NCBI GenBank assembly: GCA_027605045.1
Contig: JAQFWX010000010.1
Coordinates: forward strand, 1,120,879-1,184,878
DNA: 64,000 nt
From: Phallus indusiatus
Lineage: Eukaryota; Basidiomycota; Agaricomycetes; Phallales; Phallaceae
Direction of reading: 5' to 3'
The number at the start of each line of letters is the position of its first letter. Within the stretch, counting starts at the first letter, position 1. The position numbers and the translations under genes are program-made. Below the pieces are notes generated by a model. That model made no database searches. It was given only the letters and a program-made list of their open reading frames with translations, and was not told the DNA's origin. Below are positions 1 through 48,149 of the stretch, piece after piece.

Positions 1-2545
1 CGCGGTAGTTGTTCTCTTGAGCTTGTCTGGCCAAGCTTGAATGGGTACCCGTTGATTTTACGGGTGTCTGACGTTGAGCTAGTATTGACTTATTATAGTC
101 CCATGCTTGCTCTATGTCGTTCGCGACTATGTACAGCCGTCGAATTGATGAGTTTTCGGCCAGGAATCCCCTCTTGGTGACTTCACTGCGAATTCTCTCA
201 TCAAGTCCTTCTAAGAACTTTCGTTTGAAGGTGTATCTGTCCGGTGGATGGACTAGACGTGCTGCGAATTTCAACAGTTCACTCATGTACCGGTGTACGC
301 TCCTTGCACCTTGCTTCGCGTGATCGAAGTTATGTGCAGACTGGTTCTTGCTTGTAGGTGACAAGAACATATTGTGCATCCTTCGGAACAGTCTTACCAA
401 GTCCCAACCCTTGGTTGAACGACCTCCTCGTTCTACGTGCTCCACAAACCATTCGTGTGCCTCTCCATCTAGTCGCATACCGACTACGGCTATATGTGCT
501 TCGACGTACGCTGCGCCGAGTAGGTTATTCAGCCTCAACCATCTGAGGATAGAGGTCACGAACTTCTCAAAGTCTTCAGGCTTTGATGATCCGCTATACA
601 TAACGGATAATGGCATCTTTGCACCCGCTTTCGCAAGTGGGGACGCTGATACTACTACATCCTTGCACTCCTCTAGTGCTTCTTGCACCATGACAATTAT
701 CCCCTCGTCTTCCCGAACTCTTCTAAACCTCTTTGTGGGTTTATGTCTATCTTCTCGGTCGTCAAATGGGGTTTCCCTCATTTCACATTCGAAGTATCCG
801 CGATCGTACGCTTCTTCTTCGTCGTCTGACGAGTCCTTGTCATCATAGTATTTGGGCATGAAGGGCCCAGCGTTACTCTCCGGTATATCTCGGAGGTCTT
901 CTCTCATTTGCTCGTACTGATCCCTGGCAGATGTTGCTCTTCTTCTGGGTACAACCGGTGCTCTGGTTGTCGGGGACGTTGCAGGAGCGTGTGCTTGACC
1001 GGCGTTTGTTGGTGGGCCAGGATGTACTGTTGACGGTCCTGGTTGCGCTGCAGTCTGAGCGGGCGCCGAGCGATTAGAGAGGTCTTGCTCAAAGATGATG
1101 CCAGGTCGTTGGCCAGCTTCCATTTCTCGGTTGCTTTTAGCCAGTTCAGTGCGTGCTGCTCGCACTTCCTGCAGGTCTTCCTGCATGTCGACATACGGTT
1201 CTTGCCTACTAACCTTCCCTTGTAACGCAGTTGTGCGTTTGTCTAATGCTTCGGAACGTTTTTCCCGTGCCAGTTGCGCTGCCTCAGCGGCCATCCTTTC
1301 CAGGTCTTTCGCTGACTCTTCCAGCTCTGCAGCTGAAGGATTACTCTTATCACGCGGTCCTTGACCCGCGTTGACTCGTCTGGTAGATTGATCTTCCAGG
1401 TAGTCACGAGTTGCCACGAACTCTGGTGGGGTACGTCGGCTGTTTCGACGTGATCTATCCAGCTCAGCTCGTCCTCTCTCTATCTCGGCGGCTGCGTCAT
1501 CTGCTGCTCGCGTGGGTCTGATGGGCGTGCTGGTCGCTGCTGGTTGTGCAGAAGGTAGGTCCTGTAACACTGAATGTAGTGTTTCCGCGTGTACCGCGTA
1601 CTGTTGTGTGGGTTGACGTGTTATACCGGGGGTCGGTGCTGCCGATGGAGCTCTGGGCGTCGCTGGCAATGCTGGCGTGTTTGCCATTGTCTTGACCGTC
1701 GCCTGCGCGTTGTCCATTACTGGGGCCAGTATTGTCGTGCTGGTTCTATTGTCGTCTCGTGCACGACCTTTCCCTTTCACCGTTGTCCACGGTTCTTCTT
1801 CATCGGGTATTACGGCTGCATCTAGTCGTACTAACATATCACCGACGTCTTGTCCCGGTGTATCACTGTTAGGGCGACTCAGGGCACACACCTAGAGGAG
1901 GGAAAACCTAAGATCTATTGGGGGGCAGCGACTAACTACTCACCTAGAGGAGGGAAAACCTAAGAGAACAAGCTTAGGTATCCCCCTCTAGGGAAAACGC
2001 ATATAAGTACAGGATATGAGGCGCCCGACTGATCCCCATGGGATCCGAGGAGATACAAACAGAAATCGAAAGAAATCGAAGAGATCGGGAAATCGAGAAA
2101 ACGGTGGAAATAGTGGAAACGACAAAATACGGGAAATGAAGGAAATCGAAGTGCGAGATGAAATCGAAAGAAATCGAAGAAATCGAATAATAGGACGAGG
2201 CGCTAGCGTACTGTAACAATCACCTCTTACGAGGTCATGGATCATCCTTTTTGCATCCTCAATCATCTTACGTGGTAGGACTACCTCGTCTTTTCCGAGG
2301 TTGGACTTATGAGATCTGGTCGATTTCACTGATTCACCTGATTCGCTCCGCGCTGGTGAAGCTTGTCTCGATCCTTGTCTCGATCCTTGTCTAGATCGAT
2401 TCGCGTGGTCCGCGACTAGTGTTTCAAACAATGCTGCATCTATCACAACAGTATCACCTGCTCGTGCAGATGTGGATGGACCGCCTTCGGTAGGTGGTGG
2501 TTCGCCTACGTTCTTTTTTGACTTCTTGTTGCTTTTAGGAGGCAT
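1..2545 (-). pseudogene. Gag (partial) of element 1, split by a solo LTR
   Basis: The minus-strand frame starts at the ATG at 2545 (MPPKSNKKSKK); a longer reading would need a GTG. It runs to 2224, is interrupted by the solo LTR 1867-2218, and continues in register from 1866 to position 1 without a stop. The N-terminal part is acidic and Ser/Arg-rich, and the middle (about 1000-1350) is a charged, probably coiled-coil stretch. The retrotransposon Gag core is at about 690-100, with blocks FEKFVTSILRWLRLNNLLG and HRYMSELLKF. The frame resembles the Gag of element C over the same region. No zinc knuckle or Pol is reached before the edge. Removing the LTR and one 5-bp duplication restores the frame, so this Gag was intact when the LTR landed. 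Confidence 0.8.
1867..2218 (-). repeat. Solo LTR, family alpha (352 bp), TSD ATCAC
   Basis: Starts TGTTAGGGCG and ends CTGTAACA. It is flanked by ATCAC at 1862-1866 and 2219-2223. It carries the CCTAGAGGAGGG/CCTAAG boxes and the AAGCTTGTTCT 11-mer (minus sense) shared with families beta and gamma. By comparison with element B, its sense strand is minus. It splits the Gag frame of element 1. Confidence 0.93.
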
Positions 2546-2622
2546 ATCCTCTCTCACTATAAACTAGCAAATACGATTGGCGTATTTTGGAAATTGTAAC
2601 GCCGTTTAGGTGTTAAAAAAGA

Positions 2623-2886
2623 TGTAACGTTTCGTTACAGTTTACGATTAGCCCGGTTCTTACGGACTCACAACAAACAGTATAAAGCTGTATATTTGCA
2701 AGTGCAGGTAAGAAAGGCTGCCGGCGCCTTTACCGTTACGCGGTATTTACTGGTGTGACGGCGCCTATGTACATTACATAATACTAGGTACTTGTGCAGA
2801 CGACGATCGTCTGCATGCAATTGTATATATATACTAATATGTACTATGGGTAATAGTAGTCCGCTGGTCATAGCGGAACCGTTACA
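2623..2886 (-). repeat. 5' LTR of element 1 (264 bp)
   Basis: On the plus strand it reads TGTAACGTTTCGTTAC... to ...GAACCGTTACA, so both ends are TG/CA with the short inverted repeat TGTAAC/GTTACA. It contains the palindrome GCAGACGACGATCGTCTGC (2798-2816 region) and the hairpin TCCGCT/AGCGGA near its right edge. Next to it is the leader segment shared with element C. The right boundary is set where the Helitron coding frame resumes. Confidence 0.75.
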
Positions 2887-3098
2887 GTGTTGACACATTG
2901 CGTTAACATTTTTTATTCGCATCCCGAATTGTTAAAGCCTTTGCCATCGCTAGTTGATTAATCGCATATGCAGCTGCTATCACGGCCGAAAAGTTGTAGC
3001 TTCTGGCTTGAGGTTTGGAGAAATACTTCACAATGTAAAATATTATGTCTTTGGTAATGCCAGCATTAAGCAACAATTTGATACCATGATTAGACCGG

Positions 3099-3493
3099 TG
3101 TCAGGGTACGCTACCACCGTCTCTCATTTTCCTTGATTATTACCATCGGCATCACTTCATTTCTATTTCATTTATTATTTCCGTGTTTTACTTTTACTTT
3201 CCGCTTCCTTGTTCTGTCTCTATTTCACTTTCTCTACTCGCACGCGTCGCGCGCTCGTACCCGGCGTGATGCCCGTGACATCACGTCGCTTAGGTTCGGC
3301 TTGGGCGCCTGGCACTTAGCTGTGCCAGGGCCGCACACCATGTCGTCGTTTTGTGTATATAGTAGCTGTACCTAGAGTGAGGGTCCCTAAGCTTGTTCTC
3401 TTAGGATCCCCTCCCTCTAGGTGAGTAGTTAGTACTTTCCCAATATATCTCTTAGGATCCCCTCCCTCTAGTCTGAGCTGAGTAGCCCTAACA
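3099..3493 (+). repeat. Solo LTR, family gamma (395 bp), TSD ACCGG
   Basis: Begins TGTCAGGGTACGCTACC and ends TAGCCCTAACA. It is flanked by ACCGG at 3094-3098 and 3494-3498. A TATATA at 3356-3361 is followed about 33 bp later by AAGCTTGTTCT (3389-3399), the predicted transcription start and self-primer. Boxes CCTAGAG..CCTAAG (3371-3391) and two inverted copies (3400-3421, 3451-3471) surround it. Sense strand is plus. It lies in the Helitron remnant. Confidence 0.93.
3356..3399 (+). promoter_or_regulatory. Predicted LTR core promoter and transcription start (family gamma)
   Basis: TATATA at 3356-3361 lies 33 bp upstream of the 11-mer AAGCTTGTTCT, which is kept in all three LTR families alpha, beta and gamma at 30-33 bp from a TATA-like box. 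In element B this 11-mer is complementary to the primer-binding site, so it should be the RNA 5' end. Inferred from spacing and conservation only. Confidence 0.55.
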
Positions 3494-3841
3494 ACCGGAA
3501 AATGAGCATGACCAACAAACACCATGCGTTCAACCATTTGAGTTTCCTTGCTGAATCCCATTCACCGTTTTCGTACACGCGCGTCTCTTCTGCCAACTTC
3601 CACAGTGCGCGTCATTTACACTTCAGGCGTTTTTTCTTGTCCAGACTCCAGTACTAAACATGTTGAAGTTGAACAGACGTGAACGTGGTTCACCCTCGCA
3701 GATGCAAACTCGAATTGTCGCACTTGTGCATCAAAATCTTCCTTCTGAGGATCCAACGGTCTTGAGAAAGCAGTCGCGATACTCTTCAAGTCTTTCAGTT
3801 GCTTCGCTGTTTCGTGATCACTGGAGACATAGGATAGTTTG

Positions 3842-4161
3842 TGTAACATTTCGTTACTTTTTATAGTGTACCGCGTACGGTACACAAGTTTTATCACGCT
3901 GTAGTTTCACACCACGAATAACAGACCAAGGGTGCTGTATTTTTTATGGTGTAAAACAAAATGCGCGTGCTGAATCAGCACGCGCGTAGCTACTACTAAT
4001 GTATAGTTATTACATAATGGCTTGCTGCGACGCGGCGAGCCAGAGGCGTTAAGCGCCTCTGTTATTAGAGTAAGTAATAGTAACTACTGCAGAGGGCTTC
4101 GCCCTCTGCATATGCCTAAGTGGCATATACTCAATCCACCGCATGCGGTGGATCCGTTACA
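3842..4161 (-). repeat. 3' LTR of element C (320 bp), hairpin-rich
   Basis: Plus-strand ends are TGTAACATTTCGTTAC and GGATCCGTTACA. It holds serial palindromes: an 11-bp stem GCGCGTGCTGA near 3962-3984, CAGAGGCG/CGCCTCTG near 4042-4062, GCAGAGGGC/GCCCTCTGC with loop TTC near 4089-4109, ATATGCC/GGCATAT near 4110-4128, and the perfect palindrome ATCCACCGCATGCGGTGGAT near 4134-4153. It is about 14 bp longer than the 5' LTR (insertion-free) in the region around 4025-4045. Confidence 0.9.
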
Positions 4162-4171: not shown

Positions 4172-5242
4172 GTAAGTTGTGACTTGGACTCCAAGTCATG
4201 GGATCGTGAAGAGGAGGCGTCTGACTGTAATCAGTCAGAGGGATTGCTGTAGTCAATCTCCATGCTCTCCGAGGCACTCGGATGCGGCGCGTCAAGGTCC
4301 TCAGGGGGCCTCAACAATTCCTCGTCCGTCATCTGAATTGGGACGGACGGGGAGTAGACCTTGTTAGGCGGGCCTGCCACGATACTGGCAGGTGATGCCG
4401 ACGCATGGACGGCGGGGGCGGACGACTGAGTCGTACGCGCCTTTTTTGTTGGACGATCCAGTCCACGGCGCACGCGATAGTCATGCGCGATGCGATTGAC
4501 ATCTTCTCCATTGGCGTATCGTTGGAGAAGGGGCGCGATCACCTCAGTGACGCGTCTTGTCGTCGCTCCATTGGCGTGCATGGAGCGAATCACCTCCTCT
4601 ATGGTGATGGAGGAGGGGAATTTGCACTCGAAGGAACGAGTGTAGCCTTCCATGAGCGTGGAAGGCAGGTGGGTGGAGGAATTACCCCTACCACCGAGAA
4701 CTTCTCCCCACACAGTAAGTGCGGGGTCGAGGAGGCACTCAGCCGCCTTCTCGAGGAACTTGGCACGTACTTCACGAGTACGTGTGACTCGTTTGAGCCA
4801 TGCGAACACCTCAACATCTTGAGGGTTTAATGATCCATCCGACATTAGTCGGATGTAGGGAGGGACCTGGTTAGGGTCCGCATTCCAAGTATTGATTAAA
4901 TACTTGATCTCGGGGTGGATGAGTTCTCCCGAGATAGACACCACCGAGGGACGGTTGGCGGCAGCCTCCATAGCTTCAAGCTTGGCGGTCTTCCTCGCCA
5001 GGCGGCGCTCCTTCATGGATCTGCGCCAGCGAGTCCATGTGTATGAAATACGCATGTGAACCCCTCTGTCGTCGGGGTACGTGAATACCGGGGGGTCGGT
5101 CCAAACCCGGGTTCCAATCTCAACGAACAATGGTTCGTCGAGGCTGCAGGTGTTATACCATGCAGTGGGGTTGGGGGTGCCAGGCACCAGAGAATGATCC
5201 CCACTAACAGTGGGGTCGAAGCCCTTGACGAAGAAGGGCCAT

Positions 5243-5638
5243 TGTTAGGGCTACTCAGCTCAGGCTAGAGGGAGGGGATCCTAAGACAATATATTGGAAG
5301 GGAAACTAACTACTCACCTAGAGGGAGGGGATCCTAAGAGAACAAGCTTAGGGACCCTCACTCTAGGTACAGCTACTATATACATAAAACGACGACGCGG
5401 CGTGCGGCCCTGACACAGCTAAGTGCCAGGCGCCCAAACCGAACCTAAGCGACGTGATGTCACGGGCATCACGCCGGGCACGAGCGCGCAACGCGCGCGA
5501 GTAGAGAAAGTGAAATAGAGACAGAACAAGGAAACGGAGAGTGGAGGTAAAATATGGAAATGATAAATAAGATAGAAACGAAATGATGCCGATGATAATA
5601 AATAAGAAAATGAGAGACGGCGGTAGCGTACCCTGACA
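5243..5638 (-). repeat. Solo LTR, family gamma (396 bp), TSD GCCAT
   Basis: Begins TGTTAGGGCTACTCAGCTC and ends GTACCCTGACA. Flanked by GCCAT at 5238-5242 and 5639-5643. Inserted in the third ORF of element C; the frame is in register across it. Confidence 0.93.
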
Positions 5639-6558
5639 GCCATGGGTCCCTATTGGAGTCCCATCCTGGCTTGGTCCGTGGATACGGACCAGAGGGTTTC
5701 CTTGGAGAAACCGGGGCAGCATCGCGAGAGCCCGATGCCTTGGTTGCATCAGCGTAGGTACGCTGAGGCTTGCGTTTGGTGGACGACGCGATGGAGGCGT
5801 CATCATCATAGTCGTTATCATTGACTATGTCTTCCATGTCGTCTGACGACGACATGTCATTGAAGATATCAGGCAAAGGGGCTACCTGGGATGGCTCAGG
5901 CGCTTTGTCGGCCTGGTCTCTCGACCGCTTCTTGGAGGTCAATGGGGAAATCGACGAGCCTGCCGTCGACGCTGAACGTTCAAGTTCAGCAATATGAGCT
6001 TTCAACTCGTAGATATGACGATTCGCATCGTCGAGGTGATCTGTCAAGGACTTGATGTCCTTTTCAGCTTCTTCTAGATGTTCGTCTAGATGATAGTACT
6101 CCCTTTTTATGAAGGGAAAGGCCTTGTAAACGGCCTGCTTGACCACGTCATGGTCAAGGATAATCGCCCCGCTGCCAGCGGGGCCTGCCAGATGACTGGC
6201 AAAGTCGTTGCACGCAGTGCAACTATCATTGTTATGATAGACGGATATACATCCGTCCATCGCGTCTAAGGTCCATTCGGACCTTTGCAGGGCCAGTTGA
6301 GCCTCTGCTTTTTTGAACCTACTAACAGGTTGCGGCGTAGGCGACCGCGAGCGGGATCGTTCGCGTTGCTGTCACGGTACGCTAGCGCCTCGCTCGATTA
6401 TTCGATCTTTTCGATTTCTTTCGGTTTCATTTCGCACTTCGATTTCCTTCACTTTCCGTATCTTACCGTTTCCACTATTTTTGTCGTTTTCTCGATTTCT
6501 CGATTTCTTCGATTTACTCCGATTTCTGTTTCTATCTCCTCGGATCCCATGGGGATCA

Positions 6559-6983
6559 TGTTAGGGCGACTCAGGGCACACACCTAGAGGGCAGGAAACC
6601 TAAGATCTATTGATGAACGACGACTAACTACTCACCTAGAGGGCAGGAAACCTAAGAGAACAAGCTTAGGGATCCCCCTCTAGGGCTACGCTACATATAC
6701 TACGTGGAAGCGCTCGGGGACAATAGATGAGTATCGCCGCGGGATCCGAGGCGATAAAAGAGAGTTCGAAGAGGTTCGGAGAATTCGATCGGAGTTCGAA
6801 TTCGAAGAGATCGAAAGGAATAGATAATAGAGAACGAGAGATGACAGAACTATAGTTCGGGTTCTCGGAACCCAAACTCGAAGTCTCGGAAAGGAATCGG
6901 AAGGGAGAAAGGAACATCGGAACACAAGGAAATGAAGAAATAACGACACGGAAGACATGAAGTGAAGCTAGCGTACCCTGACA
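6559..6983 (-). repeat. 3' LTR of element B (family beta, 425 bp)
   Basis: Plus-strand ends are TGTTAGGGCGACTCAGGG and GCTAGCGTACCCTGACA. Matches 12317-12741 base for base as far as I can check by eye. The Pol frame runs into it and ends at a stop at 6968-6970, inside the LTR. Confidence 0.95.
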
Positions 6984-9900
6984 CCACCCCCCCCTTCAAC
7001 AAGGCGTCGACCCGACGCCTGCAGATCGTCCCATTCATCCATTGGTCTGGGCCGGAACAACAAACCGTTAATTGAACGCGGTGCATGTGGGTGGTCTCGA
7101 TAGAAGTCGCGCAGAAGGTTCGGAGCGGCAAGATCTTTTTCTGGAATCCACTGATCATGCTCCGGGCCGTACCCCTCCCAGCGAACCTTGAACTCTAATC
7201 GATTCCGAACAATTCGACTGTCTAAAACCTCTTCCACCACATAATGTTCACCATCGTCTCGAAGTTCTGGAGGTGGGGGAGGTTTCGCACAACGACCCGG
7301 AATCGTATCAGTAGCTGCAGGACGGAGTTTGGAAACATGGAAAACAGGGTGCAGTCGAGACATCGACTTCGGAAGAACCAATCGATATGCTCGGGAACTG
7401 ACCTTTGCTGCAATCGGATAAGGACCCAGGAAGCGGTGCGCCAATTTAGCTGAAGGTCGAGTTGTTCGGATATCACTAGCATCTAAGAAGACCTTGTCAC
7501 CTGTTTTGTACTCTGGAGCTGGGACGTGCTTCCGATTATAATATTTCGCCATGTCGTCCTTTGCCTTCACAATCGCAGATCTGGCCTCTTCGAGAGCTGC
7601 AGCCATTCGATCCTTGAACTCGTTAACTGCTTCGATCTTCGATCCTGGAAGTCGGGGCTCGAATCCCATGCGTGGTTGTCGCCCTGTGTCGAGTTCAAAG
7701 GGTGTGGATTGCGTCGCGGCATGTATGTGGTTGTTGTAAGCGAACTCGGCCATAGGAAGGAGGCGGTCCCAGTTGTCCTGTCTTTCCGAAGTGAAAACAC
7801 GAAGGTACTGTTCGATTTCGGCATTAACACGCTCGGTCTGGCCATCGGTTTGTGGATGGTAGGCAGTAGACATTGCTAAGCGTATTCCGAGGGTTCTGGA
7901 GAGTTCCTTAGTGAATCGAGCTGCGAACTGAGGTCCTCGATCCGAAATGATCTTCTCGGGTAGGCCGTGAAGTTTCCAGACGTGTTGGAGATAGAGTGAA
8001 GCCAGCCCAGAAGCGTCCAGAGTTGTGAAGGTCGGAATAAAGTGTGCGCGCTTGGTGAGAGAGTCTACCACCGCTAGAATGGCATCGTAACCGTTCGATT
8101 CGGGAAGTTCCACGATGAAGTCGACCGAAATGAATTCCCAAGGTCGGTAAGGCGTTTCTGTGGGTTCTAACTCGCCGAATGGAGCTCGTCGCGCGAGTTT
8201 CGTGCGTTGACAGGGGTCACAGGCCTCGACATATCGTTGAACGTATCTGGAGATACCGGGCCACCAGAATGTTCGGGAGATCAGTTCGAGGGTCTTGAAA
8301 CGTCCAGGGTGTCCACCGATCTTCGAATCATGATGGCACTGAGTGATCTTACGACGCAGTTCCTCGTCGCTCGGAACATACACCTTTCCACGGTAATAAA
8401 TGACATCCTGATGTTCGGACCACTCACTAGTATGTGCAGAGCGGCCACCAAGAGTTCTAAGAGATTCTAATGCCTTCGAAACACCATCTTCATGCTTTCC
8501 TTCACGATTTGCCTTTCGGATTTGACGCAGGAAACCTTCCTCCTCCCCTTTAAGCTGGAATGTTTGCAAAGCATTGATTGCGAACATTTCGGGGCGAATT
8601 AAGGTGATGCCTTGGTTGTCCTGCTTACCAGACCCATGATCTGCACGTCTAGAAAGGCTGTCGGGTTTGCCCATAGATCTTCCCGGGACGTGTCGAAGCA
8701 TAAAATCGAATCTGGAGAGATAAACCGACCACCTAGCCTGTCTTCGGTTAAGATTCCGAGCTGTCATGAAGTATTCGAGGTTCTTGTGATCTGTTCGAAT
8801 ATCAATCGGATGACTCGAACCTTCGAGGAAATGTCGCCATTCTTCTAAAGAGCGGATGATCGCCAACATTTCCTTGTCGTGGATCTCGTAATTTCGTTCG
8901 ACGGGACTAAGCGACTTTGAGAAAAGGCAACTGGATGCCACTTGTTGTCCTCCGAAGATAGCTGAGAAAGCACAGCACCTGTAGCGAAATCAGAACTGTC
9001 AGCTTCGATGCGATAAGGTCTGGAAGGATCGGGAATTAGCAGAACTGGTGCAGATGTCATAGCGAGCTTAAGGGAATCAAATGCATCCTGGCAGATGTCT
9101 GTCCAGACAAACGGAACATCTTTCTTCGTCAGACCGAACATGGGATGAGCGATCCGGGCGAAATCCTTAATGAAGCGACGGTAGAAGTTAGCGAAACCAA
9201 GGAAGGACTGAACTTCAGTTACGTTCTTCGGGACAGGCCATTCACGAACTCCGGAAACCTTCGCTGGATCCATCTCAACAGTATTCTCAGAAATGACCAT
9301 TCCTAGGTACTCGATCTTCGTCTGACAGAACTCACACTTCTCCGCCTTGAGATACAACTTGTGTTCGCGTAGTCGTTCTAGGACACGACGAGTGATCAGA
9401 TCATGTTCCTCCCGAGTTTTCGTGTAAATGAGAATATCGTCGATGTACACAGCCACTGCGCCTTCCGAGATCAGATCCTCGAAGATTTCGTTCATCATCG
9501 TCTGGAACGTTGCTGGACTGTTAGTAAGACCGAAAAACATCACTAGAGGTTCGAAAAGTCCTCGATTCGTTCGGAAAGCGGCCTTCCACTCGTCCCCCTC
9601 CTTAATCCGAACATTGTTGTAACCCCATCGCACATCGAGTTTAGTGAAATACTTCGCGCCTTGTAATTTATTGACAAGTTCCGAGATCAGGGGGAGCGGG
9701 TAGCGATTTTTGATCGTCATGGCATTTAAAGCACGATAGTCCTGAATGAGCCGAAGCGAACCGTCCTTCTTCTTGATAAAAAACACGGGGGAGGCCATCG
9801 GAGACTTTGAAGGACGTATCCGACCCGACCGAAGGTTCTCTTCCAGGAACGCGTCTAATTCCTTCTGCTCATTAGGAGATAGTGGGTAGATCTTACAGAA

Positions 9901-10902
9901 CTTTGGTTCAGATCCTGCTAGAAGTTCTATGGGGTGATCCCACTTCTTCGGATCAGGAAGGGAATCGAAGGATTCCTTAGCAAAAACATCTTCAAAGTCA
10001 TGGAAGCGTTCTGGAACGATTTCTCGGAAGCCCTTCTTGACTGGAGCATCAGCGTTGTTGGCGTAGGCCTGCGCAAGGCGTTGAGATATAGTTTCGGTGG
10101 CTCCTATGGAGTGACCAGAGGGTTCATCCGAGGCTAAGGAAATGGCGAACAGACGATCGCCTTCCTCGGGTTTGAATTCTGTCTCGATGTCCACAAGATC
10201 TGGCATATCAGGATCTGTAGATTCAGTGTCGTCCAATTGGACTGCTTGAGAAGCTCGGACACGGCGTAGAAAACGCCTAGAACCTCTTCCGAGGGGTTCT
10301 GGAGGAGCACAAGATCGACATTGTGGACTGCAGCGGGTTAGCTCGACCTCTCCCGTGGTGTAATCGATGACAGGGTTATGAGCCTTGAACCAAGGTAACC
10401 CGAGAAGAACAGGATACTTGCCCAGCGCAGTGACAGCAAACAGAACTCGTTCCGAATGTGTTCGGTATCGCATGACAATGTCTACAACATGGGTGATGTG
10501 GCCTGCTTGATTCGCAGTTCCGTCAACATTGAAGACAGGGATCGGTCTCGGAAGTCGAATGGTGGGGAATCGATGCTTCTTAACAAAATCACGGTCAAGG
10601 AACATACCACTCGCACCAGTATCGAGCATGGCCTTCGTGGAGGTGATGTCCCCAGTGTCAGCACTCTGAAGTTCAACAGAGATCTCGAGCCTCTGCGTAC
10701 CAGCAGTTGCTGCTAACCGGAACTCGTGTGGAAGACGACTCCGAAGCTTTAGAGGAAGTCGATGGGGGATAGAAGGAGCAGAGGGAGGTTCGGGAGATGC
10801 ATCAGAATCAATAGAAGTCGAATCAGAATTTTCATTGCACTCGGTGTCTATGTACAATTTTTCGAATCTATTGGATACTGGCAGCGAAGGTGCATCCTTC
10901 AT
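6968..10902 (-). pseudogene. Pol of element B: protease, RT, RNase H, integrase, chromodomain; one frameshift
   Basis: The ATG at 10902-10900 overlaps the gag stop as ATGA. In order: aspartic protease LDTGASG near 10610; reverse transcriptase with YIDDILIY near 9450; RNase H start DSSDFATGAV near 8990; integrase zinc-binding HH-CC region near 8200-8340; catalytic core DFIVEL near 8120, SDRGPQF near 7940 and a Glu in TERVNAE near 7830; GPY/F-like region; and a chromodomain (EEVLDSRIV...FKVRWEGY) near 7130-7260. The frame breaks once at the AAAA run at 8922-8925 in RNase H, where the remainder continues in another frame. The C-terminus EGGGGVRVR is encoded by the polypurine tract and LTR. The chromodomain marks it as a chromovirus. 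Confidence 0.93.
6984..6998 (-). other. Polypurine tract of element B
   Basis: The minus strand has a G-rich run (AAGGGGGGGGTGG) directly before the 3' LTR. It is read as part of the Pol frame. Confidence 0.8.
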
Positions 10903-12166
10903 TCGCTGCCTTCGGGAAAATCCTCCGAGGTAGGGATCTCCAACGAGGGCTCCTCAATGACTGTAGGGGCATCGGAACGTGTGTGAGCCTCTTCAACATC
11001 CTTCCGGGCAAGGAGCTGTTGCACAAGACTATCGATCTCATCCGATTGTATAAAACGAACGTCGTAGGCACGGGGGCAGTCACGAACCATGTGGCCAACC
11101 TGTCCGCATCGGTAGCAACGTGCAGTCTCCGTTTGGACACGTCTACGAGCCGCGTCAACATCCATAGCATCATTCCGAGGTTGTGCAGCAGGAGCAAGAG
11201 GTGAAGGGGGAATGGGCCTACTCGGAACTGGAGCCGCTGCTGGAAATGCAGGTCTGGGGGGAGCGAATGGAGGTGGTGCGTACACTGGAGGGTTAGAGGC
11301 CCTCTGATAGACAGGGAATGGACTAGGACGCGTTCGAGGCATCGGAACCGTGGTCAAGGGGGCAGAAGCATTTGGAGTTGGAAGGACACGACGTCGAATG
11401 GCGTTGAAGGCATCATTATTGCGTCGAGCTTGATCGAAGAGTCGTGCAGCTTTAATCCAGCCTTCATGGTCATTCATAGCTGGATGATCCTGCATCGTTG
11501 CGACCTTGTCCTGAACTTCTTGATCGAGACCCTGTCGGAAATAGGAGGTGATGGCTAGGCCATCTCGATCGGTGAATCCAGCCTTGTTTATGATGATCCG
11601 GAAGGAGTCGATATAATCGTCAACGTTTCGACCTCCTTGTGCAAAACGTCGAGAAAGCAAGAGGTTGAGAGCGTCCTCTTGTTCGGTGAGTGGGAAGAAT
11701 TCAGACTCGAACTTGATCTTGAACTCGTTCCAGGTGGTGTAGGGGCGGGTTCCTGACTGGTACATGGCAAGCTGGGTTTCGGCGAAGACCCCCGCGCGTC
11801 CACTGTTCATATAGGACAACACCCATTGAATCTTGGCATCGAGGGAGGCGAAATCCGAACCACAGATGTTCATGTACAGAGCGACCGAGTTCCAGAAGGA
11901 CCGGCCATTTTGCGATCGCCGTCAAACGCAGTTGGAACGGCGGGACGAGTGTTCCGAGAGGATTTGGAATCACCCGTAGAGTTCGAAGCGGGAGCTTCAG
12001 GGTTAGGAGGACCAGTGGGAGGCGGGTCAGAAGGATTGGCAGCGGGAGCCAGAGACGCAAAGCGGTTATTGATGTGTTCGATCAGCTGGTCAAGCTTATC
12101 GGTCTGCAAGGCGATATTTTGCTCAAGGGTGAGCAGGCGAAGTTCAGAGGTCTGTTCGGACTCCAT
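10899..12166 (-). pseudogene. Gag of element B, about 422 aa, one frameshift
   Basis: The ATG is at 12166 (MESEQTSELRL); an upstream TTG is not needed. The N-terminus has a predicted coiled coil (LLTLEQNIALQTDKLDQLI), then a Pro-rich linker and PTAFDGD, followed by the retrotransposon Gag core (NICGSDFASLDAKIQWVLSY near 11810-11870). A CCHC knuckle CYRCGQVGHMVRDC lies near 11075-11115. The frame shifts at the TTTT run 11908-11911 (plus strand): upstream reads FDGDRK and downstream continues in the -1 frame as NGRSFWNSVALY. It ends with TGA at 10901-10899, overlapping the pol ATG. Confidence 0.9.
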
Positions 12167-12303
12167 GAGCAAAGTTGTCGACAGGCAGGGGAAGGAGGAG
12201 TCGAGTTATGGACAGGGACAAGGAAGTGCCGGAACACGTTGGACGATGACCGGAGGTGTTTTCCGAATGTAGCCGTCAATACAAAACGACTGGTCCGAGA
12301 TAG

Positions 12304-12314
12304 AAGCTTGTTCT
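12304..12314 (-). promoter_or_regulatory. Primer-binding site of element B, complementary to its own RNA 5' end
   Basis: Minus strand AGAACAAGCTT begins 2 nt after the 5' LTR. It is the exact reverse complement of AAGCTTGTTCT in the LTR (minus strand, plus coordinates 12425-12415), which starts 32 bp after a TATATG box. No tRNA-type TGG motif is present. This matches the 11-nt self-priming arrangement known for Tf1. Confidence 0.75.
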
Positions 12315-12316
12315 GC

Positions 12317-12741
12317 TGTTAGGGCGACTCAGGGCACACACCTAGAGGGCAGGAAACCTAAGATCTATTGATGAACGACGACTAACTACTCACCTAGAGG
12401 GCAGGAAACCTAAGAGAACAAGCTTAGGGATCCCCCTCTAGGGCTACGCTACATATACTACGTGGAAGCGCTCGGGGACAATAGATGAGTATCGCCGCGG
12501 GATCCGAGGCGATAAAAGAGAGTTCGAAGAGGTTCGGAGAATTCGATCGGAGTTCGAATTCGAAGAGATCGAAAGGAATAGATAATAGAGAACGAGAGAT
12601 GACAGAACTATAGTTCGGGTTCTCGGAACCCAAACTCGAAGTCTCGGAAAGGAATCGGAAGGGAGAAAGGAACATCGGAACACAAGGAAATGAAGAAATA
12701 ACGACACGGAAGACATGAAGTGAAGCTAGCGTACCCTGACA
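12317..12741 (-). repeat. 5' LTR of element B (family beta, 425 bp)
   Basis: Same sequence as 6559-6983. In sense orientation it has TATATG (plus 12457-12452), then AAGCTTGTTCT at 12425-12415, flanked by one CCTAGAGGGGG box and two inverted CTTAGGTTTCC...CCTCTAGG boxes. Confidence 0.95.
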
Positions 12742-14715
12742 GATCAGTCGGGCGCCTCGTACTTTGTATTTATATGCGTTTTCCCTAGAGGGGGATACCT
12801 AAGCTTGTTCTCTTAGGTTTTCCCTCCTCTAGGTGAGTAGTTAGTTGCTGCCCCGCAATAGATCTTAGGTTTTCCCTCCTCTAGGTGTGTGCCCTGAGTC
12901 GCCCTAACAGTTGCTTTCCCTTGCTGTCAGGCATGGGGGGTGTGAGGGAGAAAAGACCGTGAACGGACTTTTTGGGTTATATACTTGGGCGGCCTCATGG
13001 AGCGCCCAAGTGAAAATTACCTCACCGCGTAGCAGTGAAGTGCCAGTGGATCCCTGTGGGTGGGATCTTCAAGCAGATCCCCGAGTGGGATCTGGGCGCT
13101 TGTTGTTGGTCCGCGACTCTCCGTGATTGGATAGTCGTGGCAGCTGCCGAGGCTCACTTACGCCTCGTAATTGCAAGTACTCGTCTAGAGCTTGCAAGTC
13201 CTTACAGTTACTGTAAGGTTCCCAAGTGGTATCCCCAAGGGTCCACTGGACTAGGAACTCGAGATCTTTCTCGCGAGTTCCACTCCAGCGATGAGCTAGG
13301 AGTTCCTCGACGTGCCATTCAGCATCGTCTGGCTGTCCAAAATCATACGCCGTGAGTGTATCGCGGCGTGGAAATCTCTCATCGTCATTGGCGATGTGGG
13401 GTTTAATCAAATCCACGTGAAATACGGGATTTATGCGACGTTGCTTGAGCTCCTCAGAGAGCTCAAGTTTCACTGTGATATTGTCTTTAACGGACAATAT
13501 TTTGTATGGTCCCACATAACGCGGGATCAACTTCTTAACTCTCCCCTTGGGGAGGTTGAGATTCCTCATCGATAGATAGACGAGGTCACCCTCTTTGTAC
13601 TCTGGTGCATCGCGCCGTGAGTTGTTCGCGTAGTGAGCCTGTTTAACACGATTGGCTATGATAGCGTCATGCGCTATCATGAGATTCCACTTTGCCTGTT
13701 GAGCAAAGTGTTGAACACCTTTGAATTTGGTGTTCGTCTCAATTTTCCTTCCCAGATTGGGAAGGTAGCCGTAATTGAGTTCAAACGGCGCGAAACCAGT
13801 GGTTTCGCTGGTGCTGCTATTAATAGCAAACTCCACCATTGGGATCCTTTCGGCCCAATCTTTTTGATCATTCTGTATGACGGAACGAAGTATTTGACCA
13901 ATTGAGCGATTGGCTCGCTCGGTAGATCCATCCGTTTGCGGATGGAACGCCGTGGACATGAGCAATCGTGTCCCCATTAGGCGTTGCAGTTCCTGCCAGA
14001 ACTTGGCAGTGAATCGTGCATCCCTGTCACTCACGATTGAGTCAGGGACACCGTGGAGTCTTACGACTTCACTGAGGTATAACCAGGCTGTGCCCTTGGC
14101 GGTCAGCTTGGTGGTGGTTGGCATCAGACGAACCATTGAGGTCAGTCTGTCAATCATGACGAATAGGAAGTTATGGCCGTTTGAAACGGGTAATGGACCG
14201 ACGAAGTCCATTCCAACTGATTCCCAAGGTCTATTGGGAATCGGGAGTTGTTTTAACAGGCCACTGGGGTGATTATTCTCCCCTTTATTGGTCTGGCACG
14301 TTCCGCAGGATCTGCAGAACGTATCGATGTCTTCAATCATCGATTTCCACCAGTACGCTTGTCTAACATACTGAGACGTTTTGTAATGTCCGAAGTGCCC
14401 AACAATTTGGTGGGCCTCACTGATTATAATCTCAGTGATCCTCCTCCCCTTGTAAAATGTGTTATGGGGGACACATAATACATCGCGGAGGAACTGATTC
14501 TTGGTAAAGATCAGTTGGTTTTTAATTCCAAACGCCTTGTGAGCGTTTGGGTTGGCAAGGACCAGCTTAAATACTGGGTCCTTGTGATAACCTTGCTGTA
14601 TCAGCGAGGTAAATTCAGCAAAGCCCTCAATTTTGGCTTTAAGAAGCTTGCTGTCTTGCTCTGCACTTAGGGCAAGTATATCCTCATCGGATTGCGCTTC
14701 TGTAATATCAGAAGG

Positions 14716-15110
14716 TGTTAGGGCACGACCGTTCAGCGATTAGACTTAAGGATCGGACTGCTACTATAACCCAGTAACCCAGTCTATAATAGCGCAAGGA
14801 ACTACACATGCGCGCACAGTTGTATATATACATGATTACGCTATCTCTAACCAATAGCTATCAGGTGCATTATCTACCAATAGGAAGAGCGGTAGCCGAG
14901 GACATACGGATGACATAGAGAAAGAGGGAGATATGACAGAATGGAGCGAACGGAGAAACGGGGAGAGTTCGGAAGAATACGCGAGGGATAAATACGGACC
15001 GGTATACCGGGTACCGTATGACCGACGTAGAGCGCGTAGGCATCTAAGTAGGTTATACTATACTACGCTAATATACTAGAATGACCGTAAACCTGGGACG
15101 TACCCTGACA
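14716..15110 (-). repeat. Solo LTR, family delta (395 bp), TSD GAAGG
   Basis: Starts TGTTAGGGCACGACC and ends GGGACGTACCCTGACA. Flanked by GAAGG at 14711-14715 and 15111-15115. It shares only the outermost bases with families alpha to gamma and lacks their CCTAGAGG boxes and the AAGCTTGTTCT 11-mer. It lies between RNase H and integrase of element C; the frame is in register across it. Confidence 0.92.
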
Positions 15111-18100
15111 GAAGGCATAGTATTTGAGGGACCTTCTACTCGAGGTTCCTCTTGTACTCGTGAATGTGTAATAACGTTCACTCTCACTTCATCCCTTCTT
15201 TCGATGGGAAGATGATCCCCTTCGGGATCAAGTCTAACGTCAGCATTGACGTATACCTCCGGAGGGTGAACCTCATCTGGAGTGTCCTCTTCGTAATAAC
15301 GAGAGAGGCCATCGGCGACATTGTTAGTGACGCCCTTGACATGAATTGTCTCGTAATCAAAACGAGACAGGTATTCATACCACCGTGCTTGGCGCGGTGA
15401 CATGCGAGGCTGGGTCTTGAAGTGGACCATGGCCTCATTGTCCGTTACTAGGGTGAATCTTCGCCCTAGTAGTTTGTCTTCCCACTTGAGGAAGGCTTCA
15501 AGTACCGCGATGAGCTCATGCTCATGGGTGCGGTAATTGTACTGTGCAGGGGTGAATTTCTTTGAGAGAAACCCTGCTGGCCTACATGTCTGCCATGTAG
15601 GCCCTTGCCCATAATAGGCACCGACGCCACATTTAGAGCCGTCGGTTACGACCCAAATTGGATCTGGGTCGTCCACGTTAATAGGCTTCAAGATAGGAGC
15701 CTTTCGTGTGAGTGCTTTGATTGAATCAAAGCACTTGTTCAACAATGGCATCCATACGAACGGTCTGTTGTTGTACGTACACCCTGATAGTGGTGTAGTG
15801 TATGCGGCTACCCCTGGTAGGTATGCCGCAACGTATTGTACGAGGCCCAGAAATTTCTGGACATCGTTATATGTGCGTGGAGTTCTCCACTCATGTATTT
15901 TATCCATCTTCTCGTGATCGGGATGGATGCCATCATCGTCGATGATGTGACCTAAGCACTCCAGTCGCTTAGAGTACAAATCAACTTTACGACTACTTAA
16001 GTAAAGTTGTGCTTCTCGCAGGCGTGAGAAGGCATTCTCTAGATGCTGCTGATGCAGATCTATTGTGTTTGAATAGACGAACATGTCGTCTATGTATGCA
16101 TCCGTCGAACGACCGATGCAGTCCCTAAATATATGGGTCATCAGACGTTGAAACGTCAATGGGGCATTGCAGTCTCCTTGCTGCATGACATGGCTCTTGA
16201 AAGTGCCATAGATGGTGGCAAAGGTCGTCTTGTGGACGTCCTCTGGGACTATGCGTACTTGCTCGTACGCCTCAGTCAGATCAATTTTTGATCTGTATTT
16301 GTGTCTCGCCACGTTCTGGCGGATGGTTTCCTGATCAGGGAAGGGCGTTACGTCCTTCTCTGTGTTTTCGTTCTGCAGGCGCAGATCGAACACGGTCCGT
16401 AGTGCTAAGACCACGGCTCGTTTCTGCAGGCAAAGCATGGGGATTGCCTGTGTAGCTACAGTTGGTTCCCACCAACCTGCAGCTATGTATCGCTGAATCT
16501 TCTCAGCGAGTAGCGCTTTGAGCGCATCCGGGCACCTGGGAAGGTGGTACCGGATCTTCTTATTGGGTTCAATAAGAGGAATCTGATGATTCACTTCCCG
16601 AAACGGGGGAAGTCGGGAAGGGACAGGACCGAAAAGGTCACTGTACTTGTTCTTCCAGTACTCGATGAGTGCTGGGACATTCTCTTCCATCATCTCAGGG
16701 ACGGAGGAGCTGGAATGTTGGGTGCTGGCTAGCACCATCGTTCCTGTTTCAGGAGCATGTCCAATCACATGGTGATTGGTGTCAATCACCTCGCCGTCGC
16801 GGGTGATTGTACCTCTGCTGAAATCCAGGCAGATGTTGTAGCGTCTCAGGAATGGGACGCCAATGATTACATCATAGTGATCGATGTTGACGATGTTGAA
16901 GTACTCTTGGACATCGATACCTCCGAATTGGATTCGGGTGTATGTCCCATACTGGATGGACGACTTGCTGCCCTTAACGGCCAGCTGTAGCACGACAGGT
17001 TTGTTGAGCTTGAAGGTTCTTGCTCCGGTGGCAAGAGAGAAATGAGGGGACATGATCATCCCCTGGCATCCACTGTCGACTAGGCAGTGAGCCAATTGGC
17101 CATTGACTGGCCAGAAACCCTCAATGGGTTTCGATGCGTTTCTGTCTCGTGTTGGGGCACGAGAGCTCACTCTAGCCGTATGGTCATAGAGTGGTTCCTT
17201 GCTCGTAGCGAGCGAGGACTCATTGTCATCCAATGGCGATGACTTGTGGACTGCGAAGTGCAGTCTGCGCTCCTCATACTCGTCGCCAATTGTGAGGAGC
17301 ATGTATACACTGGGACCATTGTCATCATCGTCCCATTGGTATTGGATGCCCTCGTCATCCTCAACGGGGTCGTTGGTGGGCTCGTCTTGGGCCACCCCTT
17401 CCTCCACAGCTTGTTCAGCTGTGGGGTCTTCCACGTTCTCCTGCGGGGCATCATTCGATGTCTCGCCAGAGGTCTCTTCAACCTCTTTGATACGACCCAC
17501 ATTGGCTCGTACCTGTCTCAGTCTGGGGCATGCATTTCTGTAGTGTCCCACCTGTCCACAGTTGAAACATGTGGGAGGGGTTGTGCTAGTATGATTGTTC
17601 GTACTAGTTGGGGCAGTCCTAGTGGTCTGCGAGCTATGGTTCCTCGAGTTTGACGAGCTCGAGGGGCGGTTCCCCAGTGGGGAGTTACCATTTGTACGCG
17701 TCTCGTGAGGACGCGTGGAGGAACCGTGGTTCCTCTGGTTCAAGCGCATATTGTTGGGATGCGCTTGCCTTACCAAGTTGTTGTGGCTGCTACTGCTGCC
17801 ACTACCGCTACTACTGCCTCCGCTATTGCTACCTGCTGGGCGGGTAGTGCTTCCTTGAGACGCCGCTACCGAGCGGCGTTTCTTGAACGCCTCTTCTACT
17901 TGAATTGTCAGTAGAAGTAGTTCCTTAGCAGTCATCTGCTCAGGATTGCCGCCTCTGAACGCTACTTCAGTGGCGAGGCTGTGGTTCAGCCCATCAAGGA
18001 ACCTCCTCCTGAATGTGTAGTCATCAGGAGGGTGCGCTAGTCTGTTGGCTAGCGTGAGCAGCACGCTCATGTACTCGTGTACAGAGTGCGACCCCTGCCG

Positions 18101-18651
18101 TTCGCGTTCAAATTGAATCGCTACCTCACTTCTAGAGTGGGGTGGCAGGAAACGATCATATAGTCTCTGCAGTGCGGGGACTAGGGTCCACTCGTGGAGG
18201 GGGCGAACGCCTCTCTCTACGTTTTGAGTAAACCATTCTTGGGCCAGCCCTTCTAGGCACATGCCCAGAAAGGATATTTGCTCTGCTTGGCTGACTTCTC
18301 CAAGCAGGTGGTTTACGCGTAGCCAGCGTAACAGACCCGACACAAAGTTGTCAAAGTCTTCGGCTCTGGATGAGCCGCTATATGTGGGCGGGAGCCCTAT
18401 CTTCGCTCCTGCTTTTGCAAGGGGCGAATTGCCTGGCATCATATCCCTGTTTGCAATCAGGGCTTCTTGAACCATGGCTATGACGCCCTCAAGTACTGGG
18501 GCGTCGTCGCTGAAAGGATCAAATCTTTCAGCACATTCTTCATCGAACGGTGTGGTGCGGAGATCCTCGCCATACTGTGGTCGACAAGTGTATCCATCAT
18601 ATGTATCGATACGCGGTGCTTCTGCTGGATTTGCAGAAGGTTGCCTATGCC

Positions 18652-19214
18652 TAAGGCTCTCAACGGGTTAGAGGTTGCACAGGTTTAACCTGCAGGTACC
18701 TGTATCCGTACCCGCAGGTCACGGGTACCCGTCACACAGGTACCCGGCGCCTAATTGACCCGGGTCGGGTACAGGTAGCCATTTTCGAAACCACGGGTAC
18801 CCGTGCTAACCCGCCCTATAAGACATAGTGACAGGTGGGTGATTTTCGAGTGGTGTTTGTCGTGATTTTTTTATTTATTTTGGCTCTAGAGAGCTCAAAT
18901 CTTACTTAAAATGGAAATAAAAAAATATGCCAACGATATTTTTTAATTCTCTACAAGATAAGTTGGGCGCTTAAATAAGCGCCCATCTCGCTTAATAACT
19001 TAATCTAGTAACATCTAGTCACACGTGACATTACCTGCAGGTAACACACAGGTACCTGCAGATTACCTGTTGTCACAGGTTGACCTGCCTACCTGCAGGT
19101 TGTCACGTGACCCGCGGGTTGAAACCCGGGTCAGGTCGAGGATACCCAAATTTTTGACACTGACCCGCGGGTACGGGTACCCGTACCCGCGGATCCAACC
19201 CGTTGAGAGCCTTA
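18652..19214. mobile_element. hAT-type MITE (563 bp), TSD CCTATGCC
   Basis: The terminal inverted repeat TAAGGCTCTCAACGGGTT has its complement at the other end. The 8-bp duplication CCTATGCC is at 18644-18651 and 19215-19222. The arms are built of repeated ACGGGTACC/CAGGTACCTG-type words. The core (about 18858-18990) contains TTGGCTCTAGAGAGCTCAA and GATAAGTTGGGCGCTTAAATA, shared with the MITE at 21763. No ORF. It interrupts the Gag part of element C without shifting the frame. Confidence 0.9.
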
Positions 19215-21476: not shown

Positions 21477-21522
21477 TAATACAGCGGCAGGTTGTTTTTA
21501 ACGCCTTTGGTGTTAAAAAAGA

Positions 21523-22429
21523 TGTAACGTTTCGTTACTTTTTATAGTGTACCGCGTACAGTACACAAGTTTTATCACGCTGTAGTTTCACACCACGAAT
21601 AACAGACCAAGGGTGCTGTATTTTTTATGGTGTAAAACAAAATGCATGTGCTGAATCAGCACGCGCGTAGCTACTACTAATGTATAGTTATTACATAATG
21701 GCTCGCCGCGACGCGTTAAGCGCCTCTGTTATTAGAGTAAGTAATAGTAACTACTGCAGAGGTAGTGTGGCCACGGTTTGGTTTTCGGACCGAACCGAAC
21801 CGAACCGAACCGAACCGAAAAAAAGACCGAAATGAACCGATTTATCAGTTCGGTTCGGTTCGGTCTTTCAAACGGTTCGGTTCACGGTTCGGAAATTTTT
21901 GAAAAATTGCCGAACCGATAGGAACCATTTCGAACCGGTTCAGAAACCGAGTCACATATTGCTATATAACTGAGTCAAAATGGTGAATGTTGTCGTGATT
22001 TTTTTTTTATTTTGGCTCTAGAGAGCTCAAAAATTGCCCAAAATGGGAATAAAAAAATATGTCATAAATATTTTTCGAATATCTAGAAGATAAGTTGGGC
22101 GCTTAAATAGGCGCCCGTGTTACATAAGCAAAAAAAACTGTCCAAAATCATCTAAATTCGTTGAAATCTAGAAAATTTCAAGTACTATTGTGAACCGGTT
22201 CGAACCACTGAACCGAACCAATAAAAACCGAACCGAACCGAACCAATGTAAAACGGTTCAGTTCAGCAAAATTTCCCGAACCGAACCATCGGTTCGGTTT
22301 TCGGTTCGGCAAAAAGTGTCAAAAAACCGGACCGAACCGAACCGCGGCCACACTATGCAGAGGGCGAAGCCCTCTGCATATGCCTAAGTGGCATATACTC
22401 AATCCACCGCATGCGGTGGATCCATTACA
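21523..22429 (-). repeat. 5' LTR of element C, split by a hAT MITE
   Basis: Plus-strand ends are TGTAACGTTTCGTTACTTTTT and GGATCCATTACA. Without the MITE and its duplication it is 306 bp. It matches the 3' LTR with scattered changes. The hairpin GCAGAGGGC/GCCCTCTGC has loop GAA here and TTC in the 3' LTR, so it is inverted. The adjoining leader 21493-21522 is outside the LTR. Confidence 0.9.
21763..22355. mobile_element. hAT-type MITE (593 bp) with GAACC repeats, TSD TGCAGAGG
   Basis: Ends TAGTGTGGCCACGG and CCGCGGCCACACTA. The 8-bp duplication TGCAGAGG is at 21755-21762 and 22356-22363. The arms are tandem CCGAA/GAACC words, and the core is shared with the MITE at 18652. It landed in the stem of one LTR hairpin of element C. 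No ORF. Confidence 0.92.
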
Positions 22430-24751: not shown

Positions 24752-25146
24752 TGTTAGGGCTACTCAGCTCACACTAGAGGGAGGGGATCCTAAGTACTAT
24801 ATTGGACAATAACTATACTACTCACCTAGAGGGAGGGGATCCTAAGAGAACAAGCTTAGGGACCCTCACTCTAAATACAGCTACTATATACATAAAACGA
24901 TGACGCGGCGTGCGGCCCTGACACAGCTAAGTGCCAGGCGCCCAAGCCGAACCTAAGCGACATGATGTCACGGGCATCACGCCGGGTACGAGCGCGCGAC
25001 GCGCGCGAGTAGAGAAGGTGAAATAGAGACAGAACCAAGAAATGGAAAGTAAAAGTAAAATACGGAAATGATAAATGGAATAGAAATGAAATGATGCTGA
25101 TGATAATAAATAGGAAAATGAGAGACAGTGGTAGTGTACCCTGACA
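24752..25146 (-). repeat. Solo LTR, family gamma (395 bp), TSD AGACC
   Basis: Begins TGTTAGGGCTACTCAGCTC and ends GTACCCTGACA; AGACC at 24747-24751 and 25147-25151. It splits the Helitron gene; the frame passes from RTLKGL to FQLRRGRIR in register. Confidence 0.93.
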
Positions 25147-29437: not shown

Positions 29438-29830
29438 TGTTAGGGCTACTCAGCTCACACTAGAGGGAGGGGATCCTAAGGTAAATATATTGGGGGAGAA
29501 CTAACTACTCACCTAGAGGGAGGGGATCCTAAGAGAACAAGCTTAGGGACCCTCACTCTAGGGACTGCGACTATATACATGAAAAACGATAGCGCGGCAT
29601 GCGGCCCTGACACAGCTAAGTGCCAGACGCCCAAACCGAACATAAGCGACGTGACGCCGTAGGCGTCACGCCGGGTACGAGCGCGCGCAAGTAGAGAAAG
29701 TGGAATAGAGACAGAGGGAGCAAACGGAGGGTGGAGATAATATATGGGAAATATAAATAAAGTAGAGGGGAATATATACCGATGATAATAAATGAGGAAA
29801 AATGAGGGGACGCGGTAGCGTACCCTGACA
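29438..29830 (-). repeat. Solo LTR, family gamma (393 bp), TSD GGGAC
   Basis: Begins TGTTAGGGCTACTCAGCTC and ends GTACCCTGACA; GGGAC at 29433-29437 and 29831-29835. It is 50 bp upstream of the start codon at 29388, same strand, so it could influence that promoter. Confidence 0.93.
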
Positions 29831-30182
29831 GGGACAATCCCACTTAATATCTGAATCAGATGTGAATTTTCGGATTTTTACTAAGCATAATGCCTCCCGT
29901 GAAGTCCGAATCAGAGATAACGTGAATGTCTGCAAAATTGAGAGAAATATTAGGGCTGGGGGTCAATGGCCGGGTCGAATCGTAAATAATGGTAAAGCGA
30001 AAAAAAAGACTCATTCGCGGCTTACATTTTTTCGTGTTCATCATGGATGCTCCCTCAGCTTTGACCCATATTGCACGAGACAGTGATAATGCGAGTACGA
30101 TCCTGCAGGAGCTATGTCTGCCAGACGTGGTTCTTTTACACAAGTTATCTCCAAGCTGTCGGAAACATACAAGTGTTTTCTT

Positions 30183-47752: not shown

Positions 47753-48148
47753 ATGGATGCTACAAGTTTGTCTTATCCCATTATTCCTTCATTTATTCCA
47801 TACTTATCTTTCCAAGCTTTTCCATTCACGGAGGACGAGTTGGATAATGCCGGTCTTCTTGGTGGAGGCGAGTCATTTGGCTTATTGTTGCGAGGGCATT
47901 TGAGCTCGCTATCAGTCACTAAAAATTTCATGTCATACTTACCACCTACCCCTTTTAATTTAGGAGTATCTGGCTTTGCCGCGTTCGCGGTGAAGACAAT
48001 GAAAGAGCACCCGGACCTGCTCAGCAAGTCCTTTGCCTTCTTTTCGCATTTATACCGCACTTACCTCCTTCCGTTCAGAGCTCTCGCTTTTCACTCTCCA
48101 ATGCATGAATTGGCAATACAAAGTCTCCAGTTTGCCACCCTTGCCTAG
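47753..48148 (+). CDS. 131-aa ORF just upstream of the trypsin-like gene
   Basis: ATG at 47753 (MDATSLSYPIIPS) to a TAG at 48146, two bases before the ATG of the next ORF. A related stretch is found upstream of the dead copy (45290-45590), so the segment was duplicated with the gene. It has a hydrophobic middle (GVSGFAAFAV) and no known domain. It may be an upstream ORF, an N-terminal exon joined by an unseen intron, or a separate small gene. Confidence 0.45.
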   Translation: MDATSLSYPIIPSFIPYLSFQAFPFTEDELDNAGLLGGGESFGLLLRGHLSSLSVTKNFMSYLPPTPFNLGVSGFAAFAVKTMKEHPDLLSKSFAFFSHLYRTYLLPFRALAFHSPMHELAIQSLQFATLA

Positions 48149-48149
48149 C

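Follow-up and report, generated by a model that had tools for sequence, protein, structure and literature searches.

Element B, a 6183-bp retrotransposon in the window (the whole 64,000-nucleotide stretch of Phallus indusiatus DNA that was analysed), is very probably a member of a chromodomain Ty3/gypsy family that primes its reverse transcription in the manner of Tf1. Judged from its sequence, this is most likely a new family of Tf1/sushi-type self-primers, and one of its copies in the host genome (assembly of 206 contigs, 67.2 Mb) appears to hold a natural compensatory pair of primer and primer site. For reverse transcription, Tf1 uses the first 11 nt of its own RNA as primer, which is also the primer length proposed for element B, a likeness in described features.

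The proposed 11-nt primer and its complementary site

On the minus strand, the putative primer-binding site AGAACAAGCTT (12304-12314) lies 2 nt past the 5′ LTR, behind the spacer GC (12315-12316), and is the exact complement of AAGCTTGTTCT (12415-12425), an LTR 11-mer that we propose as the self-primer, i.e., as the first 11 nt of the RNA and the start of R. On the plus strand, the two are read as AAGCTTGTTCT at 12304 and AGAACAAGCTT at 12415, and the 3′ LTR holds its own copy of the primer 11-mer (6657-6667). The pairing ends sharply on both sides, with C facing C at primer position +12 and T facing C at primer position -1. A TATATG box (12452-12457, minus strand) starts exactly 32 nt before A1, the first base of the 11-mer, and R would begin at LTR base 317. 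The polarity fits the copying of U5 and R, with the 3′ end of the primer pairing beside the LTR. The original prediction had described an exact complement 2 nt from the LTR, its partner 32 nt after a TATATG and a match of exactly 11 nt that stops on both sides, and all of these were located as claimed. By chance, a complement of any 11-mer starting 0–5 nt after the LTR was counted in 7 of 20,000 dinucleotide-preserving shuffles of the LTR.

Structure and coding frames of element B

Element B occupies positions 6559-12741 and is read from 12741 to 6559. Its 5′ LTR (12317-12741, minus strand), TGTCAGGG...CCCTAACA, is identical to its 3′ LTR (6559-6983, minus strand) over 425 bp, and a target-site duplication, GATCA, is found on the left (6554-6558) and on the right (12742-12746). 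The LTR termini TGTCAGGG and CCCTAACA form an 8-bp inverted repeat with one mismatch. A putative polypurine tract, GAAGGGGGGGGTGG (6984-6997, minus strand), adjoins the 3′ LTR and was assigned by this position.

Four open frames on the minus strand cover the coding region. The first (11870-12205) is the likely start of Gag and is without a Pfam match, and its reading goes on in another frame (10899-11921), which matches Retrotrans_gag and zf-CCHC. The first Pol frame (8845-10953) includes the protease, reverse transcriptase and the start of RNase H, and the second (6968-8989) includes RNase H, integrase, SH3_Tf2-1 and a chromodomain. The domain order according to Pfam is Gag-protease-reverse transcriptase-RNase H-integrase with the chromodomain at the integrase end, the weak protease match being below the curated cut-off; by these predicted domains, element B is a Ty3/gypsy chromovirus. 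The Gag and RNase H readings are each split over two frames, with frame changes within 11870-11921 and 8845-8989. Among the four closest other copies (97–99% identical), two are found in 1328-aa frames and one in a 740-aa frame, and the remaining copy ends at 702 aa, as B does. The Gag and Pol frames overlap at 10899-10953 with Pol at -1 (11921 - 10953 = 968, remainder 2 mod 3, calculated by hand).

The best 120 of 4286 relatives of the first Pol frame were 45–68% identical to it and covered 60–96% of the query. The named hosts among these 120 were agaricomycetes, such as Lyophyllum, Mycena, Moniliophthora, Psilocybe, Pleurotus and Trametes, with the exception of one relative labelled as a bacterial metagenome bin. 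Names of relatives such as 'tf2 155 kda protein type 1-like' are annotations. A profile scan of viral contigs, for which the query was aligned with 12 of the 120 best relatives, found no relative.

Distribution of the 11-mer pair and the LTR lineages

The spaced pair of 11-mers was found at 167 places in the genome, vs. none for a reversed-pattern control. Thirteen of the 15 places that were fetched (L031-L045) are real junctions between an LTR end and a primer site, and the other two (L036 and L045) are artefacts in which an LTR adjoins another LTR; the number 167 is thus an upper bound for the real elements. A junction pattern with at most 2 mismatches matched 339 places, vs. 3 for its reversed control. 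One hundred of these 339 matches were listed, all with perfect flanks, and they comprised 96 exact sites, one site with a single change (the copy C23, described below) and 3 unrelated flanks.

The LTRs form three lineages that share the same 11-mer and whose U3 regions are hardly alignable with each other. Over U3 (up to position -31), the identity was 0.58 between lineages 1 and 2, 0.56 between lineages 1 and 3 and 0.55 between lineages 2 and 3, vs. best shuffles of 0.54, 0.56 and 0.55, respectively, which places lineages 1 and 2 slightly above chance; over R-U5, the corresponding identities were 0.87, 0.78 and 0.76 (the representatives of lineages 2 and 3 in this comparison are variant copies whose 11-mer is one base off the common form). 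The Pol proteins linked by position to the lineage-2 locus L034 and the lineage-3 locus L044 are ~82 and ~79% identical to that of B, respectively. The TATA box is found at -32 in lineage 1, at -30 in lineage 2 and at -33 in lineage 3. It stands at the distance of its own lineage in 94 of 96 distinct contexts; in one of the other two it is at -29, and the last is without it.

In the window, element B interrupts an LTR of lineage 2 (6370-6558 and 12742-12909). Joined without B, the two parts of this LTR measure 355 bp and agree with the LTR at 31720-32072 in 313 of 355 aligned positions. This host LTR has a target duplication of its own, GTTGC (6365-6369 and 12910-12914). Six further lineage-2 or lineage-3 LTRs with the same 11-mer are present in the window (1867-2218, 31720-32072, 3099-3493, 5242-5639, 24752-25146 and 29438-29831).

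A second chromodomain Ty3/gypsy element in the window, element C, is likewise read on the minus strand; its coding sequence lies at 13069-18667 and its LTR pieces at ~2594-4161 and 21496-22429, and both LTRs are apparently interrupted by insertions. Between the 60 nt around the inner boundary of its 5′ LTR and the LTR pieces examined, no complement of at least 9 nt was found; because this boundary is eroded, the contrast with element B is weak. A 345-bp inverted repeat (20609-20953/21135-21479), with arms that are 99.4% identical and ~180 bp apart, apparently lies just inside the 5′ LTR of element C. Elsewhere in the window, a stretch of ~1.2 kb is duplicated with 75% identity (46081-47235 and 48618-49826), and the frame at 48003-49907 gave no Pfam match.

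Comparison with tRNA primers and other roles of the 11-mer

Most LTR elements use tRNA primers, which speaks for the alternative that a cellular tRNA or tRNA fragment primes element B and that the match in the LTR is incidental. The comparison took in 40 of the 63 listed tRNA loci, which are the best-scored part of 3116 candidates; one locus was read from each of 40 E-value groups, and ARAGORN called 30 of them as tRNAs and did not call the other 10, which leaves this alternative some room. The primer site, however, begins with AGA, where pairing with CCA would call for TGG. At best, 9–10 of 18 nt agreed with a tRNA 3′ end (40 tRNAs, offsets 0–14; a figure without a shuffle control). Over the 60 nt that follow the LTR, the longest perfect run was 7 nt in lineage 1, 9 nt in lineage 2 and 8 nt in lineage 3, whereas 200 shuffles of the lineage-1 stretch averaged 8.2 nt and reached 11 nt at most. 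That a tRNA serves as the primer is hence highly improbable. The original prediction that a tRNA-type primer site is absent agrees with this comparison, in which none of the 40 tRNAs gave a convincing match.

The complementarity might instead serve dimerisation, packaging or a DNA-level signal. Such a role would suit the AAGCTT, which is itself a palindrome, and an 11-mer that is almost frozen, beyond the needs of pairing alone. The complement nevertheless occupies the exact position where a primer site must lie, has the right polarity and stands where no tRNA-type site was seen, and we give this alternative next to no probability.

Co-variation of primer and site

The two 11-mers were compared inside this one genome in 41 copies for which both partners were read, consisting of 39 distinct sequences plus the copies C23 and C140. 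Identical sequences were counted once, and copies with a short flank or an odd R-U5 were dropped. For the 39 sequences, the script was restricted to primers that fit (A/G)(A/G)GCTTGTTCT and to sites with no more than one change. Both partners had the common form in 37 of the 41 copies, both were changed with pairing kept in one, the primer was changed with a G-U pair kept in two, and the site was changed and unpaired in one; this tally is from a non-random sample, given that C23, C153 and C140 were fetched because the search showed a variant in them.

The double change is that of C23, which has the primer GAGCTTGTTCT in both LTRs and the site AGAACAAGCTC, with position 1 included in the change. 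This copy is young: its LTRs are identical over 352 bp and it is flanked by the target duplication GAAGA. A search for the primer that begins with GAG found three places in all, namely C23, C34, whose LTR is identical to that of C23 and is without a readable site, and C153, where GAGCTTGTTCT is present in the 5′ LTR (the only LTR read), the site is unchanged and a G-U pair is kept. In the copy C2:503, A2 is changed to G, giving the primer AGGCTTGTTCT in both LTRs, and the site is unchanged, which results in a G-U pair. The LTRs of C2:503 have 1 difference in 397 bp, outside the 11-mer, and its target duplication is ATCGA. This copy looks like the intermediate state that would be expected if the LTR changes first.

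In the copy C140, the site is AGAACAAGCCT and the primer has the common form, so that one pair is broken. Its LTR is split by another insertion with a 5-bp repeat, GTGAG, on both sides (found by eye), and was read across this insertion; it is 87–88% identical to two lineage-2 LTRs of L034, and the copy is old. An LTR without an attached site at L021 (2222) reads AAGCTTGTTTT, in which the change of C10 to T would keep a G-U pair. Where both partners were read, the primer changes are solely A to G at positions 1 and 2.

Searches with exclusion patterns, which require the perfect flanks CCCTAACAGT and CTACNNNNNGAC and do not extend to lineage 1 or to the form of lineage 2 that has an additional base (C23 included), found no single-letter site variant at positions 1–9 and one, C140, at positions 10–11; chance matches to the reversed patterns numbered 10, 9, 9 and 0. 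Looser scripts, which accepted any 11-mer after NCCT or at most 3 changes, yielded no further primer or site variant among the loci given.

The covarying change that the original prediction had proposed to look for in other copies was thus found once, in C23. The expectation that the two 11-mers change together stands for this copy and fails for C2:503, C153 and C140, which are changed on one side, the first two with a G-U pair kept and C140 unpaired. These one-sided changes are weak evidence against the expectation, because mutation can follow insertion. Among the papers listed in searches of an open-licence library, no title or opening of an abstract pointed to a natural compensatory pair of primer and primer site.

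The start of the RNA bears on a further alternative, by which the 11-mer is the self-primer and the RNA starts further upstream, the primer being freed from an internal position or supplied by a second RNA. An imperfect inverted repeat around the 11-mer (CCTAGAGG...CTAAG / CTTAGG...CCTCTAGG) could place the 11-mer near the loop of such a longer RNA. Against this, the TATA box is 30–33 nt upstream of the 11-mer in all three lineages, a longer RNA that was copied should extend the complementarity beyond A1, where it stops, and position 1 itself is co-changed in C23. A start further upstream is therefore very unlikely, although less so than a tRNA primer. The arms of the inverted repeat in U3 do not co-vary between lineages when compared by eye, and a co-varying hairpin around the 11-mer was rejected.

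Folding of the leader RNA

The 11-bp primer helix is present in the minimum-energy fold of each leader, one per lineage. It is followed by CU:AG and by UAGG:CCUA at the LTR end in lineages 2 and 3, and by CU:AG alone in lineage 1, for which the assumption that a helix adjoins the primer in every lineage did not hold. The 3′-flank pairing GUGAGUAG:CUACUCGC had p values of 0.020–0.036 in 4 of 6 lineage-3 copies, 0.15 in the other 2 and 0.23–0.92 in all 6 copies from lineages 1 and 2. For the 5′-flank pairing, p values were 0.34–0.67 in 12 of 12 copies, none being better than most shuffles; the p values for both flanks are uncorrected for repeated tests and come from related copies. An extra-stable 5′ leader of element B was also rejected (z = -0.92, with 35 of 200 shuffles as stable).

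Proposed mechanism

The geometry of the two 11-mers, their polarity, the TATA distance in three lineages, the tRNA comparison and one double change support the original prediction of Tf1-like self-priming at the level of sequence. In the proposed mechanism, the RNA of element B would start at A1 (12425), and its first 11 nt would anneal to the primer site adjoining the inner end of the LTR. After cleavage by RNase H behind nt 11, reverse transcriptase would extend the resulting 3′ end through the spacer into U5-R. The primer may then stay attached and be copied during plus-strand synthesis, by which the primer site of the new copy would be rewritten from the RNA 5′ end. The self-primer of Tf1 is reportedly not removed, and in retroviruses primer sites are rewritten from the primer.

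Rewriting of the site from the RNA 5′ end would account for a complementarity of exactly 11 nt with a sharp stop at A1, and for a change that is present in both LTRs and the site of one natural variant (C23). It would also account for an order of steps in which both LTRs are changed first, as in C2:503, and the site then follows, as in C23.

Relation to known self-priming elements

Self-priming was first shown for Tf1 and has been implicated in elements from fungi to vertebrates, according to one account (PMC4600332). It is described as common among Tf1/sushi elements, a group known from fungi, vertebrates and some non-seed plants (PMC10085805, PMC6317226, PMC4600332). Outside fission yeast, Tf1/sushi elements are described as having Pol in the -1 frame relative to Gag, with a programmed -1 frameshift (PMC10085805). 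In element B, the site complements the predicted start of the element's own RNA rather than a tRNA, and Pol is at -1 relative to Gag, as a frame relation only. The founders of Tf1/sushi, Tf1 and Tf2 of Schizosaccharomyces pombe, are like B in that their site complements the inferred RNA 5′ end and in that they have a chromodomain integrase. Self-priming of Tf1 is described as requiring three duplexes (PMC10085805); such a three-duplex fold is not clearly present in the family of element B.

For Tj1 of Schizosaccharomyces japonicus, as for B, the self-primer was inferred from the LTR complement of the primer site, and Tj1 is reported to transpose (PMC4600332). Basidiomycete chromovirus clades are described as including marY1 (PMC2864245), which has been grouped with Tf1/Sushi-related clades (PMC6317226). 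Like B, marY1 and the other members of these clades are basidiomycete chromoviruses, and the marY1 clade is perhaps the nearest to B, as judged by host only.

R-U5 repeats and conservation of the 11-mer

Directly after the 11-mer of element B, R-U5 contains the 21-nt direct repeat CTTAGGTTTCCTGCCCTCTAG (12394-12414, minus strand), and an identical second repeat follows at 12342-12362 (minus strand); across this region (12342-12414 in element B), a very variable stretch separates the two repeats. The repeats are identical within the copy in 34 of 35 distinct two-repeat sequences, and their sequence differs between lineages. Forms with a single repeat (2) or three repeats (1) also occur and retain the primer site, which brings the distinct R-U5 sequences to 38. 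This pattern suggests slippage or template switching in reverse transcription.

Pairing alone would not require the 11-mer to be as conserved as it is, given that the primer and its site could drift together. If pairing were the sole constraint, double changes should be more frequent than was seen. As a tentative and rather unlikely explanation, the 11-mer may be a shared primer currency, such that RNA from one lineage could serve as the primer for another in trans. Priming in trans, combined with rewriting of the site in each round, would keep the 11-mer frozen and would favour those changes that still pair with an unchanged site.

The occurrence of one putative primer sequence across three lineages provides a large natural series in this genome, in which the double change of C23 agrees with the prediction of a site that is rewritten from the RNA 5′ end. 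With this series, the rewriting of primer sites and the cause of the frozen 11-mer become directly testable.
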